NCBI GenBank assembly: GCA_020719385.1 | Contig: DYQK01000025.1 | Location: 1-35,462, forward strand | DNA length: 35,462 bases | Direction of reading: 5' to 3' | Source: Rikenella microfusus | Lineage (GTDB): Bacteria; Bacteroidota; Bacteroidia; Bacteroidales; DYQK01 | Part shown: one piece after another, positions 4,496-32,140 of the stretch | Numbering within the stretch: position 1 is the first letter of the stretch | How the letters are laid out: every line of letters starts with the position of its first letter | Made by a program: the position numbers and the translations under genes | The notes under the pieces: generated by a model | What the model saw: only the letters and a program-made list of their open reading frames with translations | Told to the model about the DNA's origin: nothing | Database searches by the model: none

Positions 4496-4527
4496 AAAGT
4501 TTCACACCGAAAAAGATGTGAAACTTT
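4496..4527 (-). terminator. Intrinsic terminator of the amidotransferase-like lipoprotein gene
   Basis: An 11-bp stem, AAAGTTTCACA (4496-4506) with TGTGAAACTTT (4517-4527), and a 10-nt loop, 9 nt after the stop codon. On the minus strand the stem runs into TTTTTTAT. Confidence 0.88.
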
Positions 4528-4535
4528 CGTTAAAA

Positions 4536-6029
4536 TTATTGTTGATTTGCGAGCCAAATGGTTGCGTTCATAATTAAAAGTCGATGACTTCCGTTTGCTT
4601 CAGCGAAATATCCGTTGTAAAGTGAATCGCCTGTGTCGCCTGTGCCGTCATCTGCAACAGAACTATCTCCGATGACAACAACTTTGCCGCTTCCAAATTG
4701 ACAATACGCTGCCATTACGTTTGTATTTCCAAAACTGCTTCCCGATTTGTAAATTATTCCTTTGACTGTCGAGTTGGCTGTTGAGTTTAAGGTTAAACTT
4801 GTGCCGTTTGAAAATTGCATTGCGGTAACATTTCCCATTGTACCTCTCAATAATGGGTCGGAGGGCAAATTGGGAATGTTAGTCGTTGTTTGCGAGAAAT
4901 TTGCGTAGTCAAAAGTGAACCCAAAAGGGTTAGTTTTAACCGAATTATTTGTCATTAAGTCGTTCCAAATGTGCGGCGAATCCCAACCGTCATTATTTCT
5001 GTCCGAGATATCGTGGTCAGCAATCATAAATAAACCGCCTCCATTTTGAACAAATTGCAAAATAGCAGTTTTTTCAGCAGAAGTGAACACAATATTTGGT
5101 TCGCAGATGACATACACTTTATAATTTGATAAATCTTGCGGATTGCTTGAATTTCCGTAAGTTATTGAAACATTATAAGGTAAAGTTTCCACGGTATAAC
5201 CTTTTTTCACGCAGTCAATAGCCCAACCTGACAAGGCACCTTTCCAATAATTTTCCGATGTTGTTGCGGTAATATTGCTTTGAGCATTTGTCGGAATTCG
5301 TTGTGCGTTTGCTTCACTTCCTGAACCTGCCACAGGATTTCCGTTGCTGTAACCCAGATTAAAAACATCTGCATCAATGACCCAATCTGCGTTTCCTGCG
5401 GATTCTGCTTTGCGAGCATCAAAAAGAATTTTTACACCTGTCGGAGCAGGAGGAGTTGTTCCATAATCCGAGATAGAAATGTCATCAAAATTGATTCTTG
5501 CTGAACCGCCGCTGATTTTTCGAATTTCGAAACGAACGTCTCCTGACTGATTAACCGTAAAACTTTGTGAGGTTAATGTTGTTGTGCTGGTTGTAATTGT
5601 GTTTCCGACTTTTGTCCAAGTCGAGCCGTTGTTGGTTGAGAGATATAATTCCCAAGTGCTGCTTGCATCGGAGCCGTATTTTGCGTGGTTGATGGAAAAA
5701 GTTCCTGCTCCGTTGGTTTTGTTGAATAACATTGTTAATTTGCCCGTGTTTTGTACGCGTGCGGCTTGAGTTCCGTTTTTGCGGTCGGATGTTGAACTGC
5801 CCAAAAGTGCGTCATTGAAGGTCCAAGTGCCAGAACTCAGTGTTACGTTTGCAGTGGCATAACTTGTTTTTGTTCCGTTGTCTAAGTTTTCAGACATTGT
5901 GGATTTCGAAACTTTGGTGCCGCTGTTGTTTAATGGCTGAATCTCATTATTTTCTTTTTGACAAGAAAACGAAAACAACATTGCTAAGAGAATGATAGCA
6001 ACGGTAAAAAGGTTTTTTGTTTTAATCAT
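4536..6029 (-). CDS. Lipoprotein with beta-sandwich domain and C-terminal glutamine-amidotransferase-like domain
   Basis: 497 residues. The start at 6029 was chosen because it gives a clean lipoprotein signal (lipobox FSFSC, Cys23) and lies 53 bp after a perfect -7 box; the frame stays open 31 codons further upstream. Residues ~45-175 form a Ser/Thr-rich beta-sandwich (WELYLSTNNGSTWTKVG ... INFDDISISDY), a domain often seen in secreted Bacteroidota nucleases and adhesins. Residues ~185-497 look like a flavodoxin/GATase-type alpha/beta domain: KILFDARK, then YKVYVICEP, GGGLFMIADHD (switch region) and VVVIGDSSVADDGTGD near the end. I see no clear Cys-His amidotransferase pair, so it is more likely a binding or hydrolase relative. 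Probably surface- or periplasm-facing; function unknown. Confidence 0.72.
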   Translation of the reverse strand: MIKTKNLFTVAIILLAMLFSFSCQKENNEIQPLNNSGTKVSKSTMSENLDNGTKTSYATANVTLSSGTWTFNDALLGSSTSDRKNGTQAARVQNTGKLTMLFNKTNGAGTFSINHAKYGSDASSTWELYLSTNNGSTWTKVGNTITTSTTTLTSQSFTVNQSGDVRFEIRKISGGSARINFDDISISDYGTTPPAPTGVKILFDARKAESAGNADWVIDADVFNLGYSNGNPVAGSGSEANAQRIPTNAQSNITATTSENYWKGALSGWAIDCVKKGYTVETLPYNVSITYGNSSNPQDLSNYKVYVICEPNIVFTSAEKTAILQFVQNGGGLFMIADHDISDRNNDGWDSPHIWNDLMTNNSVKTNPFGFTFDYANFSQTTTNIPNLPSDPLLRGTMGNVTAMQFSNGTSLTLNSTANSTVKGIIYKSGSSFGNTNVMAAYCQFGSGKVVVIGDSSVADDGTGDTGDSLYNGYFAEANGSHRLLIMNATIWLANQQ

Positions 6030-21647: not shown

Positions 21648-22487
21648 TTAGTTTAAGATGTAAGCTTCTTGCCAAACCTTAGTAACTAAATTATAAGAGA
21701 TCCAGCCAAAACCACTGGTAGCCCAGCTTGTGCCCCATGAGTTCATTACTTTGAATGCTTGCTTTGCGTCATCATAACCAACAACGCAATAGCAATGTCC
21801 GCCCATGCTTTTGCCTTTTACGGTAGTTTGAATTTGGTTGTTGCCCAAATACATAAAACTGCTATAAACAGGTCCTGCTACGACTACAGCTTTTCCGTTT
21901 GCTAATTGGGTTTTGATTGCAGTTGCTGTGAGAGAAACTCGTGTGTAACTTGCAATTTTGTTTGCTGCTGCTTCTTGTTGTTGTTGAGCGTTAGGCATTG
22001 TGCTGCATCCGTTTGTGCTGCTGTATGGCATTGTTGCCCATGTGCAAGCACCTTGATTTTTCAATAAATCTAACGCATAAGTAACATAAGAACCGCCGTC
22101 GCAACTTCCGATTTTAATTTGGTTGTAAACGTACTCTGGAGAAAAAATGTTGGTGTTATAACTGTAAGAAGTTCCACCTTTGAGAACGCTGCGAGCAGCG
22201 TATGTTGTTCCCCATGCTGTACAAGAACCTTCGCTTCCTTGGTCTCCAATAGGAGGACAATTTAACGAAAAGGAAGTTGGCAATGCTTTTAAAGTTACTG
22301 TTTCTGCCAAAGGAATACTTTCATATTCAGCGGTTGGCAACATTTTGCAACCCATATTATAAACAGCTTGACTGGAGGTTGGCTCATTGACGAGTGTACC
22401 GTTGTCATTTTTTTCGCAAGAATTGAACAAGGTTATTACTAAACCAAGAATTACGAGCGAAGATAAGAAACCGAGAACTTTTTTCAT
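21648..22487 (-). CDS. Papain-like (C1 family) cysteine protease lipoprotein
   Basis: 279 residues. The lipoprotein signal ends LFNSC (Cys24), so it is probably anchored on the outside of a membrane. The C1 peptidase catalytic set is complete: oxyanion Q83 and nucleophile C89 in GDQGSEGSCTAW, H231 in GGHCYCVVGYDD, and N249 in VMNSWGTSWATSGFGWISY. Length after the signal (~255) fits a catalytic domain with only a short N-terminal region (~25-70), so there is little space for an inhibitory propeptide. Likely degrades external protein or peptide. It has a strong promoter with a ~110-nt leader and shares a bidirectional terminator. Confident family call; substrate unknown. Confidence 0.92.
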   Translation of the reverse strand: MKKVLGFLSSLVILGLVITLFNSCEKNDNGTLVNEPTSSQAVYNMGCKMLPTAEYESIPLAETVTLKALPTSFSLNCPPIGDQGSEGSCTAWGTTYAARSVLKGGTSYSYNTNIFSPEYVYNQIKIGSCDGGSYVTYALDLLKNQGACTWATMPYSSTNGCSTMPNAQQQQEAAANKIASYTRVSLTATAIKTQLANGKAVVVAGPVYSSFMYLGNNQIQTTVKGKSMGGHCYCVVGYDDAKQAFKVMNSWGTSWATSGFGWISYNLVTKVWQEAYILN

Positions 22488-22696: not shown

Positions 22697-22739
22697 AAAA
22701 GTTTAGAATTAAAAAATAAAATTTTAACTCTAAACTTTT
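22697..22739 (-). terminator. Intrinsic terminator of the flotillin-like operon
   Basis: AAAAGTTTAGA (22697-22707) pairs with TCTAAACTTTT (22729-22739). After one mismatch the stem continues with TTAAAA/TTTTAA around a 7-nt loop. It lies 23 nt after the stop of the downstream flotillin gene; on the minus strand it runs into GATTTTTAACG. Confidence 0.75.
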
Positions 22740-22762: not shown

Positions 22763-24157
22763 TTAATGATGAGCAGAATCGTCTTTGTGTTGGTTTAATT
22801 CTTTGTTTTGTTGCCCCAAATTTTTTCCTAACGCTTCTCTCATTTTTGTATCTGCCTCGGTGTTTACCATTTGATGATATTCGTGAATCGAAAGTTTGCC
22901 GTCTAAGAATGCTGCTGCGATGGCTTTTTGCACTTCTCTTTCTGCTTTTATAAACTCTGCTTTTGCCATTTCGGCTTCGGCTTTTGCTCGTTCGCGTTTC
23001 AATTCGGCGTGAATATCTTTTCCGATAACAATATCTGAAACATCAATGGAAAGAATTCTAAAACCTGACCCCTCGTCAAGATTGCGTTTCTCTACTCTGT
23101 CGGCGAGTTCATACGGACTTTCCAAAACTTGATAATGAGTGTTTGTTAAACCAATTTCTGTGATAATTCCTTCGTTTACTTTTGCAGAAACCGTATCATA
23201 ACTCAAACCGCCAATGATACTTCGCAGCTGTGCGCGCAAAGTAAGTTTTACCTTCATTGTTAGCTGAATTCCGTCTCTTGCATAACCTGAAACGCCGCCG
23301 GTTTCGACAACTTTTGCGTCAATACAAGAGTTAACTGATTTTGTTACGTCATAACCTGCGAGGTCAATGGCGGCAATATCTTTGAATGTGATTTCTTCGA
23401 GATTCGCTTTTTTCGCAGCAATGTATGCCTTGAGGGCTTCTTCGAAATGTCCGCCTGAGGCATAATGTTCGCGTAATTCGTCCAATGAAATGTCAAATTC
23501 GGAGTTCTGAGCGGCAATTTTTGCTTTGATTAAACGTTCAACATCTAATTTTGCAAGATGATAACTGCACAAAGATTGAAAATCGGTGATAATTTTCGCA
23601 TTCTTCGCCATAACTAAGGTGCTTGCCACTTTATCAACATCAACATTCGCAAGAGATTGCTTCGCAATTTGGTCTAATGTTACATCAATTCCAGCATTTT
23701 TCACAACAATTAAGTCATTTACAACTTTGTCCACATCAACGCCTGCCAAATGATATTTTCCCAAATCAGAAATATCAAGTTCTATGCCTGCGTTTTTTGC
23801 TTTGATGACTAATTTTGTCACTAATGTTCTTGGAATGCCTTTCCATCGTAGAAAAATTAATTTTATCCACGAGATTCGTATTCCCGACAACCAAGCGGAA
23901 TACCACAATCGAAGCGGCACCATAATAGTAAAGAACAAAACTGTTCCGCCGCCGAAGATTATCGCAGCGAGAATGACCAAGATGGTTTGCCAAATCGGTA
24001 AACCGCTGCTTTCGGTTGTTTGTTGCTGATTTTGTACTTCTTCGACACGATTATCAACGTTAGTTGCCTTCTCGTCATCGAAAGTGATGCTGCAATTTGA
24101 TAACGAAAAGAAAATAAAAAGTGCGAAGAGTACAAATAAAATATATTTTAGTTTCAT
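22763..24157 (-). CDS. FloA-like flotillin (SPFH) with five helical repeats
   Basis: 464 residues, against ~330 in Bacillus FloA. It starts with a signal-like segment ending SLSNC (possible lipobox, Cys22), then a strong membrane segment (~56-80). Residues 119-280 hold five ~32-residue repeats built on K-NAGI-x-h-(T/S)-hDpL-x-x-(H/S)-x-LA-x-hDVDKVV-x-x-LI-x-A. Canonical FloA has about two such units here. The SPFH-type domain follows (~281-400: VETGGVSGYARDGIQLTMKV, GFRILSIDVSDIVIGKDI), then a charged Ala/Glu/Lys coiled coil and a short tail with EADTKMREALG, a FloA hallmark. Flotillins oligomerise on the inner membrane in functional microdomains. It starts 1 nt after the stop of the larger paralogue. 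Confidence 0.88.
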   Translation of the reverse strand: MKLKYILFVLFALFIFFSLSNCSITFDDEKATNVDNRVEEVQNQQQTTESSGLPIWQTILVILAAIIFGGGTVLFFTIMVPLRLWYSAWLSGIRISWIKLIFLRWKGIPRTLVTKLVIKAKNAGIELDISDLGKYHLAGVDVDKVVNDLIVVKNAGIDVTLDQIAKQSLANVDVDKVASTLVMAKNAKIITDFQSLCSYHLAKLDVERLIKAKIAAQNSEFDISLDELREHYASGGHFEEALKAYIAAKKANLEEITFKDIAAIDLAGYDVTKSVNSCIDAKVVETGGVSGYARDGIQLTMKVKLTLRAQLRSIIGGLSYDTVSAKVNEGIITEIGLTNTHYQVLESPYELADRVEKRNLDEGSGFRILSIDVSDIVIGKDIHAELKRERAKAEAEMAKAEFIKAEREVQKAIAAAFLDGKLSIHEYHQMVNTEADTKMREALGKNLGQQNKELNQHKDDSAHH

Positions 24158-24158
24158 T

Positions 24159-26036
24159 TTAATGATTTTTTTCTTCTGTTTTGTAAATGTTACTTTTGTG
24201 ATATTCGTTCAAATTCGAAAGTGTGCCTTTGGTAAAACCCTCTGCCATTGCTTTTTGTATTGACGCCTCGGCTTCAATAATCTCTGCTTCTGCTTTAGTT
24301 TTCATTCGCTCAGCTTCTGCTTTTGAAAGAACTTCCTCAATCTTAGCGGTGCGTGCATCAGCAATTTCAATATCAGGAATATTGACATCTAAGATTTCAT
24401 AAAAACTGTTGTTGTTCAACTCTCGTTGTTTTGCGTTAAATTGTTTAACTTCCTCTTCCATCGAAAAACGGTCTTTCTGACTATTTAACGGCATTTCTGT
24501 CTGACCGAGAAGTTTTTTTAACACATTTTTTGCAATTTTTTCGAGATTTTTCAACACATCACCATAACCCTCGCATCTCTCTATTTCAGAAATAAGTGCC
24601 TCGTTGGTACGTTCAGCAAGAACATCCTCGCGCGTACCCTTCGAATATTGCTCGATTTTCTCGCGAACCGTAACGTGAATTTTGGGAATAATCCCGATTC
24701 CATCTTTCGAGACAACAACAATTTTCCTCGACAACTCTATAACTCGTTGATTTAAACTTCGATTCACAAAATCCTCTGGTTTTTGCTCCGTTTTAATGAT
24801 GTGTGCCGCAAGTCCGAAAGGAAGTTTTAAACCCTGACTTTTTGCCAATTCCATTAAACCTAACACTCGAAGACCGTCTCCGCCGTTGAGAAAATGATTG
24901 TCCAAATCGTCAATACTCACTCCAAAATCTTTGTTGATATTCAACGACTTACGTGCTTTTGTGTATTTTTCAGGGTTGACATTTGCCAAACACAACGATT
25001 TTAACTCCATCAAAGTTATCCCCAAATTCATTTTTTTCGAAACAATTAAGGCTTCAATAATTTGATAAGGCTCGTCTGAATTCCTAAAATGCTCCAAAAG
25101 TTCCGACAATTTAACTTCAATTCCTGCTATTTTAGCCCGAATCAAATGAGAAACTAATTTTTCAACATCTTTTCCTGCAATATAATGCTGAATTAACTCG
25201 TTTTGTGGAATTCCTAAACCTGCTTTTTCCGAATTTAACAACGCATTGACAATTTTTTCAATGTCTAAATCGGGATATTTATACACTCGCAAAACGTCCT
25301 GCGAGATAGGAACACCTGCATTTTTCGCATTCGACATAACATTGATAAACTTCTCAACATCAGACTTATCTGCGTATAAATCAATGAGTTGCGAACCTGT
25401 TACGTGTAAAGTATTGGGTTTTGTTTTTGTTACTTCATCTTTCTTTTCGAGAAGCCCGATAATTTGAGTACGCTCAACAACGTCAAGTACTTTTTTCATT
25501 TCAGAAACATCCAAACCGCAGTTAAGAAGTTTCATTGGGTCAATTTCATAAGACTTCGCCCTTTGCATCGTTGCGGCTAAACCTGATATGTCTTTTCCAG
25601 ATTCCAATTGTGCCATCAAAATAATGTTACCTGCTTTTACGCTCGATTCTTTCAAAATTACCCATACACTTACGAAATCGACAGGATTTACAAAAGCAGA
25701 AACATCAATAAACTCAGCAATTGAACATTTTAAATCATTTCGTTGTGCAATAAAATATGCAGTCCCAATAGGCAAAACCGAACCACCTTTTTCAGCAAAA
25801 GAAATTAACTTTTTTAATTCTAATTCAGGAATAACAATTCCTTCTTCTTGTGCTTTTTCAAGAACTTTTTCCAAATCTTTTGCGTGAGACCCCGTGTTGA
25901 TGCGATACGCAGTTGAAAAGGGAACACCAAGTTTTTGAGAATTCTCATACACTTTTTTGGGAGAATGCTTCGAGTAAAGCAACAAAATTACTCCGACAGC
26001 CAAAAATAATAAAACAGAAACGACAACTATTTCCAT
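24159..26036 (-). CDS. Divergent FloA-like flotillin with long helical-repeat array
   Basis: 625 residues. One N-terminal membrane segment (~3-21). Residues ~30-430 can be parsed into roughly eleven or twelve ~32-residue units of the same kind as in the partner gene; the clearest are NAGVPISQDVLRVYKY..., KAGLGIPQNELIQHYIAG... and IAGIEVKLSELLEHF..., each ending in a DVEKLV-type helix. Then a divergent SPFH-like domain (~435-570: VVVSKDGIGIIPKIHVTVRE ... YEILDVNIPDIEIADARTAK) with an insert around 505-545, and an Ala/Glu/Lys coiled coil. The C-terminal tail resembles that of FloA (SIQKAMAEGFTKGTLSNLNEY). It is first in a two-gene operon. Probably partners with the shorter paralogue at the inner membrane; inferred, not shown. 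Confidence 0.8.
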   Translation of the reverse strand: MEIVVVSVLLFLAVGVILLLYSKHSPKKVYENSQKLGVPFSTAYRINTGSHAKDLEKVLEKAQEEGIVIPELELKKLISFAEKGGSVLPIGTAYFIAQRNDLKCSIAEFIDVSAFVNPVDFVSVWVILKESSVKAGNIILMAQLESGKDISGLAATMQRAKSYEIDPMKLLNCGLDVSEMKKVLDVVERTQIIGLLEKKDEVTKTKPNTLHVTGSQLIDLYADKSDVEKFINVMSNAKNAGVPISQDVLRVYKYPDLDIEKIVNALLNSEKAGLGIPQNELIQHYIAGKDVEKLVSHLIRAKIAGIEVKLSELLEHFRNSDEPYQIIEALIVSKKMNLGITLMELKSLCLANVNPEKYTKARKSLNINKDFGVSIDDLDNHFLNGGDGLRVLGLMELAKSQGLKLPFGLAAHIIKTEQKPEDFVNRSLNQRVIELSRKIVVVSKDGIGIIPKIHVTVREKIEQYSKGTREDVLAERTNEALISEIERCEGYGDVLKNLEKIAKNVLKKLLGQTEMPLNSQKDRFSMEEEVKQFNAKQRELNNNSFYEILDVNIPDIEIADARTAKIEEVLSKAEAERMKTKAEAEIIEAEASIQKAMAEGFTKGTLSNLNEYHKSNIYKTEEKNH

Positions 26037-26738: not shown

Positions 26739-27248
26739 TTACAATAAATTTTGAGTTTTCAAATCTAAGATTCGCTTCATTAAATCTGACTTAATTGCTG
26801 TCTCGACTGAGGCAAAAATCTGTTTCTCGTCTTCAACATTTAAACGTTTTGGTGAGTTATTATCTTTTTTTTTAAACATTGCTTCGGTTAATTGCGGCAA
26901 ACCTGTCAAAAATCGAGTTTGATAATTCATCTCAACACTTGAATATATCGATGCGTTAATACAAGAGATTAACCCTTCGATGTGCGGCTTGAGAACAGTT
27001 AAAACTTCTTGAGAAATACTTTTCTCTTGAAAATCGAGATTATCATTTTTCAAAATGTCGTAAGTAATTCGTTTTTGCACAAAATTTTCGTACAAAATAT
27101 CCATTTCAGCGATAATTTTTGCTGCTTTTTCTCCCCAGCCTTTCGTTCCATGATATGCAAAAATCAAAACTATAACGGTGAGGAAAAATAAAATTCCGAC
27201 AATAATTATCCACGTTGGTAGAAAAGGTGCTGATTCCATAAAATTCAT
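26739..27248 (-). CDS. Single-pass membrane protein of unknown function
   Basis: 169 residues with one hydrophobic helix (about 12-32: TWIIIVGILFFLTVIVLIFAY) and a charged helical remainder (~35-169), probably cytoplasmic. No known motif is recognised. The ATG overlaps the stop of the upstream PKD lipoprotein gene (ATGA overlap, 27245-27248), so translation is probably coupled and the two products may act together; a second in-frame ATG lies three codons later. The C-terminal part (LNVEDEKQIFASVETAIKSD) is amphipathic. Ends before a bidirectional terminator. Confidence 0.72.
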   Translation of the reverse strand: MNFMESAPFLPTWIIIVGILFFLTVIVLIFAYHGTKGWGEKAAKIIAEMDILYENFVQKRITYDILKNDNLDFQEKSISQEVLTVLKPHIEGLISCINASIYSSVEMNYQTRFLTGLPQLTEAMFKKKDNNSPKRLNVEDEKQIFASVETAIKSDLMKRILDLKTQNLL

Positions 27249-28216
27249 TTTGCATTTGATTTATATTCGAAAAAAATGGTGGCAGAAAAACCCCTTTGCG
27301 AATCGTTTTTCGTAATAGATTCGGGATAATGCTTGTCTCTCAACTCGCTGACAGAGAATTGAAATTCCCAAATTGGTTCGAAACGAGAATCTAAATCATA
27401 AATTTCGAAGCTCAAAATGCCTTGCGAGAAATCGCCGTTAAAGAAAAATAATTCTCTATCAAAAATAAACGAAGTGGGAAATTCTTTTACATCTTTAATA
27501 ACTTCGCTTTCACCCTCGTGATGACCGTCAAAATGTACTTCGCTGTACAAATTTTTGTGCAAAAACTCTTGCGTGAGAGAAACTTTCATACTTTTGACAA
27601 TAATTTCTGTCGGTGCGGCGTGAACTTCGATGGGAATCGAATATTTCGCAGTGTCTCCTGAACAAATTGCGTTTAAAATTACGTTAAAAATTCCTGCTTT
27701 TGTGAATTTATGTGTTGGAGAAAATTCTTTTACTCCACTTCCGTCTCCGAAATTCCAAAAATAATCCGAAGCACGTTCAGTTTTGTTGATAAATTTGACT
27801 TCAGCAGGAACGTAATAATTGTTTTCTGCAAATTGTACCTGAAATTTTGGGTTTATCGGCAAATTATTTCGCAAATCGATGATTAAACTTTTTCTGTCTT
27901 GTGCATTTTTGTACGAGGCAGTAAGCACAACGGTATAAAGTCCGTTTTTTGCGAAGCTGTGTAATGCGTCTTTTTCGTTGGAAATTGATGTTGTGTCGCC
28001 GAAGTTCCAAGAATATTTTACATTACTCTCGCTTGTGTTTTGTGTTTCGATTTTTGCCCGAAATGTCGTGATAAATGGCGGTTTACAACTGCTTTTTATT
28101 GTATCAAAACTGACAGAGAGAATTTTCACTTTGGGGTCACACAAATCGCAACCAATCATAATTGTTCCAAGCAAAAAAACGGTGATAAGAATTGTAAAAA
28201 TTTTTATTTTTGACAT
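27245..28216 (-). CDS. Lipoprotein with two PKD domains
   Basis: 323 residues from ATG 28216, chosen because it begins a lipoprotein signal (MSKIKIFTILITVFLL, lipobox MIGC); the frame is open 15 codons upstream. Two PKD repeats are evident: KYSWNFGDTTS ... HSFAKNGLYTVVLTA (~60-105) and DYFWNFGDGSG ... HKFTKAGIFNVILNA (~145-190). PKD modules are extracellular beta-sandwiches used as spacers or for binding glycans or proteins. The C-terminal ~120 residues form a further beta-rich domain (ILSFEIYDLDSRFEPIWEFQ) without a name. It is followed, with a 4-nt overlap, by the membrane protein gene. No consensus promoter found; a near match with a 3-nt spacer (TAAACTTTG) is at 28259-28267. Confidence 0.8.
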   Translation of the reverse strand: MSKIKIFTILITVFLLGTIMIGCDLCDPKVKILSVSFDTIKSSCKPPFITTFRAKIETQNTSESNVKYSWNFGDTTSISNEKDALHSFAKNGLYTVVLTASYKNAQDRKSLIIDLRNNLPINPKFQVQFAENNYYVPAEVKFINKTERASDYFWNFGDGSGVKEFSPTHKFTKAGIFNVILNAICSGDTAKYSIPIEVHAAPTEIIVKSMKVSLTQEFLHKNLYSEVHFDGHHEGESEVIKDVKEFPTSFIFDRELFFFNGDFSQGILSFEIYDLDSRFEPIWEFQFSVSELRDKHYPESITKNDSQRGFSATIFFEYKSNAK

Positions 28217-28310
28217 AATTTTGTGATTTTTTTGTGAAAAAAATTTAATTTTTTGCGACAAAGTTTATATTTTTTTTTGAGAAAACAAAATTTTTATAAA
28301 AATTCTATAT

Positions 28311-28508: not shown

Positions 28509-28643
28509 AAAATTATTGTTTGTTGTAAAAGACAAAAACTGTCAATAATTTAAACTTAAATTTTTTTGCTTTATTGCAGTTGTAAGGCGTTTTAATTCAA
28601 GGCATTATGAAGAATGTACAATGTTTCTCGCAAAAATTGTTTG
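28509..28643 (+). repeat. 135-bp leader cassette, copy A (upstream region plus first 12 codons of the CHAP gene)
   Basis: Matches 29286-29420 at a constant offset of 777 bp with about five mismatches. It covers ~98 bp before the ATG and the start of the signal peptide. It contains an inverted repeat ATTATTG (28512-28518)/CAATAAT (28543-28549) with an inner GACA-N5-TGTC (28531-28543), identical in both copies and a candidate operator or RNA hairpin. No exact TAnnTTTG is present; the nearest is TA followed by a long T-run and G (TTTTTTTG at 28561-28568). Confidence 0.9.
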
Positions 28644-29113
28644 TAATGTTGATGGCAATGATTTTTGCTATCAGTGCAGCAAAAGCACAAGCAGACGAAA
28701 AAGAAGTTGATGAAAAAGGCAATTGTCAATGTGTTGCGTATGTAAAAAAACGTTACACGATTGTTGGTGGAGTCGGAGCAAATGGCGGAGCGAAGGATTA
28801 TGGCCCCATATTAACCAATTCTACGAATGGTTTTCAAGTAGTTGCCGAACCACAAAACAAAGATATTGCTGTAATGCAACCTTGTTTTCCTGGTTCGCAC
28901 AAAGTTTATGGACATATTGCTTTAGTTGGAAAAGTTACAAAAAACAGCAACGGCACCATTACGGTTGTACTTTACGGAGCAAATCAAGGAGGAAATATGT
29001 ATTCTGAATGTGGATGTTCGAATGTTTCCTCGTGGAAGATTACCGTTAACAACAGCAATAAAAATTGCATAAAGTTTTATAGAAATTTGTCGAAATATCA
29101 TTCATGCGATTAA
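28607..29113 (+). CDS. Secreted CHAP-domain (cysteine amidase/peptidase) protein
   Basis: 168 residues. Signal peptide MKNVQCFSQKLFVMLMAMIF to AKAQ. The mature part fits a small CHAP domain: CQCVAYVKKR (C42 the likely nucleophile, matching the C-T-x-Y-V pattern), and VYGHIALVGKV (H103) followed by ITVVLYGANQGGN. CHAP enzymes cut peptidoglycan amide or cross-bridge bonds. Seven further cysteines in the mature chain (C40, C93 and five between residues ~125 and 167) suggest disulfides. The first 12 codons and ~98 bp upstream are near-identical to those of the T9SS cargo gene at 29384. There is no T9SS sorting domain, so it may remain in the periplasm. Family call likely but not certain. Confidence 0.78.
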   Translation: MKNVQCFSQKLFVMLMAMIFAISAAKAQADEKEVDEKGNCQCVAYVKKRYTIVGGVGANGGAKDYGPILTNSTNGFQVVAEPQNKDIAVMQPCFPGSHKVYGHIALVGKVTKNSNGTITVVLYGANQGGNMYSECGCSNVSSWKITVNNSNKNCIKFYRNLSKYHSCD

Positions 29114-29285: not shown

Positions 29286-29420
29286 AAAATTATTGTTTGT
29301 TGTAAAAGACAAAAACTGTCAATAATTTAAACTTAAATTTTTTTGCTTTATTGCAGTTATAGAGCGTTTTAATTCAAGGCATTATGAAGGATATACAATG
29401 TTTCTCGCAAAAATTGTTTG
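29286..29420 (+). repeat. 135-bp leader cassette, copy B (upstream region plus first 12 codons of the T9SS cargo gene)
   Basis: The second copy of the cassette at 28509-28643. The inverted repeat ATTATTG/CAATAAT is at 29289-29295 and 29320-29326. Differences are clustered around GTTATAGAG (copy A GTTGTAAGG) and codons 3-4. Identity stops abruptly inside the signal peptide. Confidence 0.9.
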
Positions 29421-32140
29421 CGATGGTCGCAGTGTTCTTTTTCTTTTTTACTCAAATAGGCGTGAAAGCCCAGCCTATTGACACTGCGTTAACAGTTTTT
29501 AGTACTCCTGACAAATTGTGGAGTTGGCGTACTCCATCTCCTTTTGGTGGAAAATTTAATTCGGTTGAGTTTATTGGTTCGGCTGCGACTAATCCGATAG
29601 CTGTTGCTGGTGGAGATTTTGGGATTGTTGCAAAGGCAAATATTTCGGTGGTTTCTGAAAAGTTAAAATGGAATCAATCAAATGTACCTGGGGATTTTAC
29701 AGAATCAACGAAAAGTATAAAATTTTACACTGATAATCAAAATGGTTTTTTGATTTCAAGAAGATTTTTACTCAAAACCGTAAATGCAGGTACAGATTGG
29801 GTTGTTGACAATTCATTGCCAGGATATGGTGGATATTTATTTTATCAACTCAAAATGGTAAACGACACGATGTTTTTGTTTGGCAAAAGCAGAACAGATT
29901 TAAGCAATGTTTTGTTTTTTCGTGCAATAAATGGTAGTTGGACTCTTGATACTGATGGCGTACCATCAAGCAATATTGTCATTTATATGGATTATCCATA
30001 TTTTTGGACCCCTAATGGGGAAATTTACAAAAATCAAACATTAATTTTGACTGTTCCGGGCGTGTTAGATGTGGCAGCGTACGGAGAGAATGATTTTTTA
30101 TTTTTGTACAGCAGTGATGGAATAGGAATAAAACTTTGTAAAAATCATCCTTCCAACGACATTGGTGCAACAGCAACTACTTACAATGGAATTATTGCTA
30201 CGCAGGATGAGTTTAAAAATTTGAAGTATGCAAAAATTCGAGTTGTTGATACAAGTGAAGTTTATGTGTTCAATGTTGCTTTGCATAAATTTTCTAAACA
30301 ATTGACGGAATATACTTGTGTTACAAAAACTATTGCCCCAGAAGTATCTGTTGTTGAAAAACCCATAATTGTTGATTTTTCGAAACGTGGGCGTTACCGA
30401 GTTTGTGTGACAAATACTCCTTACATTTATGCTTCAAATTCCGAGTATTTCACTCCCACAAAACCACAATCTGATATTATCATAAAACATGCTCGCTGTG
30501 TTTATAGCACAGATGCGAATACATTTTATGTAATACAGTCAAATAATCCTGGAATAGCTGCAAAAACAGTAATCTATAAATCAATAGACAAAGGTAAAAA
30601 TTGGAATGTTTTAACCACTATGTCTATTAAATTAGATAGTGTTGAGAAGTTTTTTGTGTTACCTGATAATTCCACTGCTTATGTTTTGGCATATGATTTG
30701 GGAACAAAACGTAGACAGATGTATTGGCACTCCTTGGTTTCGAAAATAACCACTTCAGTTGCCCTTAATGGTGAGGTTGTTGATTTCTATTTCATAGATA
30801 ACGAAAAAGGTTGGGTATTAACTGAAGGAGCAGTGGATTCAACCTATGAGTTATCAACAACTAATTTGGCAAATCGAAGAGACTCTTGCCCTATTTTTAT
30901 AAGAATTTTTGAATTTAAAAATAATGACTACACAAAAAAGAAAAATTTGAATTGTCTTTGGTTCACTTCAGAAAGTCTTGGTTTTGTAGGTGGAGGCGTG
31001 AACGGGGGACAGGCTGTATTAGCAGCAACATTTGATGGGGGAAATACATTTACCAATGAGGGTATAGTAATATCAGGAGGTTCTGAATTGAAAGGAATCC
31101 AATTTATTGGACAACAAAAAGGTTTTGTAACATCAATGAAAGGCTCTTTTTCTCGCACACGTGATGGAGGTGGACGAACGGATAGTTGGATTGGACCAAT
31201 TCAACTCAAATATGAAAATGGCGATTTAGTTACTCAACCTGTTTACAATTTTCAATTTTGGAGTGATATAGAAGGCTATACCGTTTTGATAGAAGGATTT
31301 TTAACAACACCAGAAGGTGGTTTAGTCATTCAAGATGATGGAACAAATTACTTTGCAACAATGAAATTAAAAAAATCACCTCTCGGTTTTAATTTGGGTT
31401 ATTACCAAAAGACTCCTTCAATGCTTGTTACTGATGCAGGATTTTCTACGTTCCTTTACTCTCGCGGATTATATACATTTACTTCGTACGGTTTTTACAA
31501 TGAAATTGAGAATTCAGGTTCTGTCGCGGTCAATAATGGAGGCACAGGAAATTCTATTTTAGAATTACCACAAACTTCCGATACATCAGGGTATTATACC
31601 GTAAATACTTCTGCTTTAACGAATGATTTAATGGTTTATGCTCCTGACGGTTTTATTATCTCGAAAGACAGAAATACTTGGTCAGATTCTTTGTTATATG
31701 ATCATCCAACGGAAGTTGGTGCTGGACATAATACTTTAACAGTGTATGTGAAGTATGGTGTTGCAACAAGAAAGACCTTATCCTCACAAAATGCAGACAT
31801 TCCTAATACTATTCGAGGACATTTGGTGTTTAGCAGCAAAGGCACAGTAACAACAGTTGGATATTTAAAAGCAAAATACACTGATAAAGTTCCTTCTGTT
31901 TCGCAATTATCTCTTTCAGTTTCGCCAAACCCAAGTGCAGGAATGTTTTTTATTGATTCTGAAAATCTCGTAAATGCAAGTCTTTCTGTAAAAGATATCT
32001 CTGGAAAAGTTGTGTATTCTGAGAAAAATGTCAACGGAACAAGTACTAACTTGAATTTATCTCACTTGTCATCGGGAATGTATTTCCTCGAAATACGCTC
32101 TGCAAAGGGCATTTCGATTAAAAAAATTGTTAAACAATAA
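29384..32140 (+). CDS. Secreted beta-propeller-like protein with type IX secretion sorting domain
   Basis: 918 residues. Signal peptide MKDIQCFSQKLFAMVAVFFF to KAQ, whose start is shared with the CHAP gene. The body (~30-760) has repeated WW-poor, Asp/Gly-rich blades of the BNR/Ycf48 type: IDKGKNWNVLT, ESLGFVGGGVNGGQAV with TFDGGNTFTNEG, and FIGQQKGFVTSMKGSFSRTRDGG. The last ~80 residues are a T9SS type A sorting domain: LSLSVSPNPSAGMFFID, SLSVKDISGKVVYSEK, LNLSHLSSGMYFLEIRSAKG, KKIVKQ. The product is expected on or outside the cell surface after removal of this domain. Ligand unknown. Ends in a strong terminator. Confidence 0.88.
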   Translation: MKDIQCFSQKLFAMVAVFFFFFTQIGVKAQPIDTALTVFSTPDKLWSWRTPSPFGGKFNSVEFIGSAATNPIAVAGGDFGIVAKANISVVSEKLKWNQSNVPGDFTESTKSIKFYTDNQNGFLISRRFLLKTVNAGTDWVVDNSLPGYGGYLFYQLKMVNDTMFLFGKSRTDLSNVLFFRAINGSWTLDTDGVPSSNIVIYMDYPYFWTPNGEIYKNQTLILTVPGVLDVAAYGENDFLFLYSSDGIGIKLCKNHPSNDIGATATTYNGIIATQDEFKNLKYAKIRVVDTSEVYVFNVALHKFSKQLTEYTCVTKTIAPEVSVVEKPIIVDFSKRGRYRVCVTNTPYIYASNSEYFTPTKPQSDIIIKHARCVYSTDANTFYVIQSNNPGIAAKTVIYKSIDKGKNWNVLTTMSIKLDSVEKFFVLPDNSTAYVLAYDLGTKRRQMYWHSLVSKITTSVALNGEVVDFYFIDNEKGWVLTEGAVDSTYELSTTNLANRRDSCPIFIRIFEFKNNDYTKKKNLNCLWFTSESLGFVGGGVNGGQAVLAATFDGGNTFTNEGIVISGGSELKGIQFIGQQKGFVTSMKGSFSRTRDGGGRTDSWIGPIQLKYENGDLVTQPVYNFQFWSDIEGYTVLIEGFLTTPEGGLVIQDDGTNYFATMKLKKSPLGFNLGYYQKTPSMLVTDAGFSTFLYSRGLYTFTSYGFYNEIENSGSVAVNNGGTGNSILELPQTSDTSGYYTVNTSALTNDLMVYAPDGFIISKDRNTWSDSLLYDHPTEVGAGHNTLTVYVKYGVATRKTLSSQNADIPNTIRGHLVFSSKGTVTTVGYLKAKYTDKVPSVSQLSLSVSPNPSAGMFFIDSENLVNASLSVKDISGKVVYSEKNVNGTSTNLNLSHLSSGMYFLEIRSAKGISIKKIVKQ

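Follow-up and report, generated by a model that had tools for sequence, protein, structure and literature searches.

Two FloA-like genes in tandem

Two FloA-like genes lie in tandem on the minus strand of the window, i.e., the whole 35,462-nt stretch of DNA that was analyzed, with a stop-to-start gap of 1 nt between the long and the short gene (Table 1). The preliminary description of this DNA had presented them as paired paralogs of the FloA family, and both encoded proteins indeed scored above the Pfam FloA cut-off (PF12127; 284.6 bits for the short and 130.2 bits for the long protein, with a cut-off of 34).

Table 1. Features of the FloA-like gene pair (window coordinates; aa, amino acids; TM, transmembrane)
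Feature	Position	Strand	Basis or remark
Long FloA-like gene, 625 aa	24159..26036	-	ORF, Pfam, AlphaFold2
Long: N-terminal TM helix, residues 2-23	25968..26033	-	AlphaFold2
Long: ~12 predicted helix hairpins, residues 40-428	24753..25919	-	AlphaFold2; five units recognizable by sequence
Long: divergent SPFH-type domain, residues 431-561	24354..24746	-	AlphaFold2, Foldseek
Long: C-terminal coil, residues 562-602	24231..24353	-	AlphaFold2
Short FloA-like gene, 464 aa	22763..24157	-	Lipoprotein signal, linker, TM, 5 units, SPFH-type domain, coil, tail ending in His
Short: signal peptide, residues 1-21, then lipobox Cys22 (LSN|C)	24095..24157	-	Sequence pattern
Short: acidic disordered linker, residues 22-54, predicted periplasmic	23996..24094	-	pLDDT 35-42, net charge -5
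Short: TM helix, residues 55-79, then basic segment	23921..23995	-	AlphaFold2, charge pattern
Short: 5 tandem ~32-aa helix-hairpin units, residues 127-282	23312..23779	-	Unit HMM, AlphaFold2
Short: SPFH-type domain, residues 282-381	23015..23314	-	Foldseek
Short: coiled-coil helix, ~25 aa below canonical FloA length	22904..23014	-	AlphaFold2, coil measurement
AT-rich inverted repeat 3' of short gene, terminator-like	22697..22739	-	18-nt arms, 94% complementary, 7-nt loop

Of the single promoter and single terminator first proposed for the pair, the latter found a counterpart in the terminator-like AT-rich hairpin that follows the short gene. A promoter was not demonstrated upstream of the pair, where the sole match to the Bacteroidota-type -7 motif (26097-26090) belongs to a motif with ~53 chance occurrences expected in the window. 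Scans for Sigma-70 promoters and GC-rich terminators were uninformative in this AT-rich DNA. Downstream of the pair lies a gene for a cysteine protease of the papain family that carries a lipoprotein-like signal (21648-22487, minus strand), and the window further encodes a PKD-domain protein (27245-28261, minus strand), a secreted CHAP-domain protein (28607-29113, plus strand) and a protein of 918 aa bearing a Por secretion tail of the type IX secretion system (29384-32140, plus strand). Analysis with PADLOC gave no link to defence. A third FloA-like protein of 631 aa without a TM helix, i.e., soluble, is encoded elsewhere in the same genome (L039:6174-8069, minus strand, contig C108) and groups loosely with the long type. 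This soluble paralog was absent from the preliminary description, as were the lipoprotein signal, the SPOR partner and the ~25-aa coil deletion reported below.

AlphaFold2 models built with alignments of relatives reached mean pLDDT values of 83.7 for the short and 81.9 for the long protein, each single chain being predicted as a helical array followed by an SPFH-type domain and a coil. The short model comprised a signal helix (residues 2-20), a disordered stretch (22-52), a TM helix (55-79) and a coil (382-418), with a leading half-unit, itself a helix pair, preceding the five regular helix pairs of the array. In the long model, helix pairs recurred ~32 aa apart. An HMM of the 32-aa unit, made from short-type repeats, detected five tandem units in the short protein, scoring 30-45 bits apiece, and likewise five in the long protein (residues 216-387), with at most one unit in each of 500 shuffled controls per protein. 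The five units initially counted in the short protein were thereby recovered, while the eleven or twelve counted in the long one correspond to the ~12 hairpins of its model and to the five units found by sequence. For the first ~175 residues of the long protein, the repeat nature derives from predicted structure and homologs, not from its own sequence; a long homolog at locus L067 contained 10 detectable units. Foldseek matched the short protein best to stomatin, HflK/C, prohibitin, QmcA and flotillin, and the long protein to the same SPFH proteins as well as to TAL-effector superhelices, in keeping with the solenoid that had been suggested for the arrays. Sequence searches of the PDB gave nothing significant.

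Divergence from canonical FloA

Neither protein reached the NCBIfam FloA equivalog cut-off of 393 bits (288.2 bits for the short and 128.9 bits for the long protein). Canonical FloA, represented by 85 sequences, is 318-357 aa long and contains one strong unit plus one degenerate unit, and most of 60 diverse genomes of the order encode one canonical FloA of 321-350 aa. The pair differs from canonical FloA in both length and unit number. The coil, measured from the SPFH domain to the C-terminal motif, spans 34 aa in five-unit short proteins and 38 aa in the long proteins measured, compared with 59 aa in 72 of the 73 canonical sequences measured. The pair is a member of the FloA superfamily but falls outside canonical FloA in these tests. 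A C-terminal histidine (HH, GH or NH) is frequent in pair members: the last three residues included one in 23 of 58 expanded proteins, compared with 1/85 canonical FloA proteins and 39/612 other ORFs.

In a tree of SPFH domains, canonical FloA from Bacteroidota, Bacillota and Thermus formed one clade (support 98), the short proteins a clade of their own (support 96) and the long proteins a third. The exception was the long protein of genome G056, the placement of which, like that of the third paralog of G000, is unsure because of very long branches. The long type was far more divergent than the short. Lipoprotein-type short proteins with only two units branched outside the five-unit short proteins (support 99). 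These two-unit proteins occur without NfeD, yet their coil is near full length (55 aa), so that a shorter coil is not a simple correlate of NfeD loss; the idea that the coil deletion directly marks this loss is weakened accordingly.

A predicted lipoprotein leader on the short protein

A lipoprotein signal was recognized by sequence pattern in 30 of 34 expanded short proteins, with the cysteine almost always at positions 18-27 of the likely start. It is followed by a linker of 36-68 aa that is acidic (net charge -4 to -24), then by the TM helix and a basic segment, an order from which an N-out/C-in topology is predicted. This charge pattern predicts that the SPFH domain is cytoplasmic, and the short protein of the window is apparently lipid-anchored at Cys22. 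Long proteins and canonical FloA start directly at the TM helix in nearly all cases, although a few long proteins possess a cleavable-type signal.

Distribution and co-inheritance of the pair

The expanded five-unit short protein was present in 17/294 Bacteroidales genomes from ten families, and in a 396-genome sample of the phylum it was found only in the window's own genome. Approximately 29 expanded loci were identified among named genomes, nearly all of them Bacteroidales metagenome-assembled genomes (MAGs) from rumen, sediment and sulfidic caves; all pair-bearing genomes seen were MAGs, in which contig breaks hide some of the neighbors. One pair (L078) occurs in a MAG titled Chlorobiota and is close to the forms of Bacteroidales family f100, reflecting either a mislabelled bin or transfer. 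The open-access literature searched yielded no description of repeat-expanded or lipoprotein-type FloA.

A long-type FloA accompanies the short protein in at least 16 of the 17 genomes; in G064, a short protein was present and no long one was found. In at least eight families, the two genes are neighbors and the long gene comes first; in G036, G044, G146, G163 and G228, they are unlinked, on separate contigs. Mirror trees of short and long proteins were correlated (r=0.83, p=2e-4, n=18 genomes), as were those of short and SPOR proteins (r=0.80, n=9), shared descent contributing to both correlations. Five units were present in 20 of 21 short proteins examined, the remaining one having about six. 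Across species, units at equivalent positions were 55% identical, compared with 30% for different units within one protein, indicating an old array with fixed positions rather than a recent expansion. Long-type proteins vary in array length (488-794 aa in total). Directly upstream of one long-short pair, two extra FloA-repeat proteins of 360 and 332 aa are encoded (L071:3322-4404 and 4513-5511).

Loss of NfeD and linkage to SPOR proteins

According to the preliminary description, no NfeD-type protease, the usual partner of other SPFH proteins, lies beside the pair. This point proved stronger than first claimed, since NfeD (PF01957) was absent not only from the flanks but from the whole 98%-complete genome; the term protease did not hold, the NfeD of Bacteroidales floA operons being short (~155 aa) and not protease-fused. 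Among 20 genomes with expanded forms, five retain canonical FloA and 15 lack it, and 13 of the latter are without NfeD genome-wide. The two expanded-only genomes with NfeD above the cut-off (G055 and G296) belong to one family. By comparison, NfeD was present in 14/14 canonical-FloA genomes examined (Fisher p=1.8e-6, the true significance being lower because the genomes are related). At least eight families show this pattern of NfeD loss.

An exported, periplasmic protein of 640-910 aa with C-terminal SPOR domains is encoded immediately upstream of the pair or of a single member. SPOR domains bind denuded peptidoglycan. These upstream proteins are homologous across families. All pair-bearing genomes tested contained a member, in most cases next to a FloA gene; in the window's genome, it is encoded apart from the pair, on contig C35. 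Related exported TPR/SPOR proteins precede clpS-nfeD-floA in several canonical Bacteroidales loci. The order exported TPR/PD40/SPOR protein, clpS, nfeD, floA recurs in many canonical operons of Bacteroidales (L048, L052, L053, L097, L100, L111 and L131) and links ClpS to flotillin, ClpS being confirmed by Pfam in the first three loci and the others having a ~95-aa gene, a putative clpS, at that position. One locus (L054) has the gene order SPOR-NfeD-FloA-long-short and looks like a preserved evolutionary intermediate.

Discussion

Considering the paralogy, anatomy, pairing, lipobox, SPOR linkage and NfeD co-loss documented by sequence or model, we favor, with moderate confidence, the view that the two proteins form an NfeD-independent, probably heteromeric inner-membrane flotillin scaffold that derives from FloA and is coupled to the wall via SPOR. 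In this scenario, the gene for the ancestral Bacteroidales FloA would have shared an operon with those for ClpS, NfeD and an exported protein of the TPR/SPOR type. Following duplication of FloA in the pair-bearing lineage, the short copy would have acquired a lipoprotein leader, grown by three helical units and had its coil trimmed by ~25 aa, while in the long copy the same helical subdomain (PHB subdomain 1) would have been enlarged to ~12 hairpins, with NfeD usually lost thereafter. The short protein would be lipidated outside at Cys22 and continue through the acidic periplasmic linker and the TM helix to a cytoplasmic solenoid, SPFH-type domain and coil, and the long protein would share this topology minus the lipid anchor. 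Multimers may form through the SPFH-type domains and coils, as in other SPFH rings or clamps. Hetero-assembly of the two is plausible, given their separate clades, co-occurrence, tandem genes and mirror trees.

In Staphylococcus aureus FloA, PHB subdomain 1 consists of six helices, varies over the phylogenetic tree and binds the microdomain lipid staphyloxanthin; NfeD contacts the beginning of the coil and joins FloA dimers into multimers (PMC11222466). The enlarged subdomain of the pair may similarly bind membrane lipid or clients and, together with the second subunit, might substitute for NfeD as the link between dimers. In the pair, the subdomain is enlarged, the coil shortened and NfeD absent. 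The most economical reading is a two-subunit scaffold without need for NfeD that would be held by a lipid at the periplasmic face and linked in function to the SPOR protein. It had been suggested that the array sets the reach or spacing of such a scaffold; as the same helical subdomain binds a microdomain lipid in S. aureus, lipid recognition is at least as likely. Finally, the pair genes often adjoin that of a cell-wall-binding protein, suggesting a scaffold that was not only re-engineered but tied to the envelope, and binding of the SPOR protein to peptidoglycan would couple the platform to the wall.

Alternatively, the two proteins may be subfunctionalized paralogs that form separate homomers with different lipids or clients and are simply co-transcribed, the array being a docking surface rather than a spacer. 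The five genomes with unlinked genes and the greater divergence of the long protein would fit this, as would the genomes that retain canonical FloA, which indicate that several FloA types can coexist; a docking role is in line with the lipid binding described above and with the unfolded clients held by S. aureus FloA (PMC11222466). However, separate homomers do not readily account for near-obligate co-occurrence within such a sparse distribution, for a tandem order kept across families or for the C-terminal histidines common to both proteins, and we regard this alternative as possible but doubtful. An extended version of the scaffold model, which we consider unlikely, is a three-part trans-envelope machine in which the periplasmic SPOR protein would read denuded peptidoglycan, the lipoprotein-type short protein transmit the signal across the inner membrane and the long solenoid build an unusually large cytoplasmic cage or lattice. 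If so, the state of the cell wall would position a flotillin microdomain without NfeD.

Neutral drift, with an ordinary FloA whose helical subdomain became larger while its function stayed unchanged, would agree with the reported variability of PHB subdomain 1 (PMC11222466) and with the variable arrays of long proteins. It is nevertheless improbable in view of the near-constant unit number and position-specific conservation of short proteins in ten families, and of the new lipoprotein leader, fixed coil deletion and NfeD loss that accompany the enlargement. A TALE-like superhelix that tethers DNA or RNA to the membrane, prompted by the best Foldseek matches of the long protein (TAL effectors dHax3 and BurrH, E about 2e-4), was rejected as highly improbable, since both repeat regions carry a net negative charge (-5 and -4), TM-scores were low (0.13-0.21), there was no TALE sequence similarity and in S. 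aureus the repeats of FloA lie near the membrane and bind lipid.

The closest known system is FloA/YqfA of Bacillus subtilis and S. aureus (PF12127, UPF0365, "SPFH5"), with which the pair shares an N-terminal TM helix, helical subdomain, SPFH (PHB) domain, coil and low-complexity tail. The pair differs in the number of helical units (5 or ~12, compared with about 2) and in having a coil of 34-38 rather than 59 aa, two subunits, a lipoprotein leader on the short one, no NfeD and scores below the NCBIfam equivalog cut-off. HflK/HflC and PHB1/PHB2 likewise comprise two SPFH paralogs, and the pair resembles the HflK/HflC type in being co-inherited and without NfeD. An FtsH partner and a periplasmic SPFH domain mark that type; the present pair, however, derives from FloA and not from stomatin/prohibitin and has helical arrays and a predicted cytoplasmic SPFH part. 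HflK/HflC has been proposed to originate from NfeD loss and SPFH duplication (PMC2636767), and by analogy the pair is seemingly a parallel event within FloA. The mammalian Flotillin1/Flotillin2 cage is a two-subunit SPFH scaffold, as we infer for the pair, with lipid-assisted membrane anchoring (PMC11260169), but its anchoring is by cytoplasmic acylation rather than by a putative periplasmic lipoprotein cysteine plus TM helix, and the pair is without its long alternating coiled-coil wall. SPFH-NfeD operons (QmcA-YbbJ, FloA-NfeD) have the SPFH fold and the ancestral Bacteroidales locus in common with the pair, the partners of which are instead a second FloA and a SPOR protein in a genome without NfeD.

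Work on bacterial flotillins rests on the FloA-NfeD pair. In the lineage described here, NfeD is gone and FloA is doubled, with the lipid-recognition helices expanded two- to four-fold and one copy bearing a lipoprotein leader. The lineage is a natural experiment on the roles of NfeD and of the helical subdomain. The SPOR linkage, which recurs next to canonical floA operons of Bacteroidales, suggests a testable tie between flotillins and peptidoglycan that fits the finding that flotillins affect wall synthesis in B. subtilis (PMC7360373). Taken together, the data indicate that some uncultured gut and sediment Bacteroidales have replaced a single FloA and NfeD with two enlarged FloA-like proteins.
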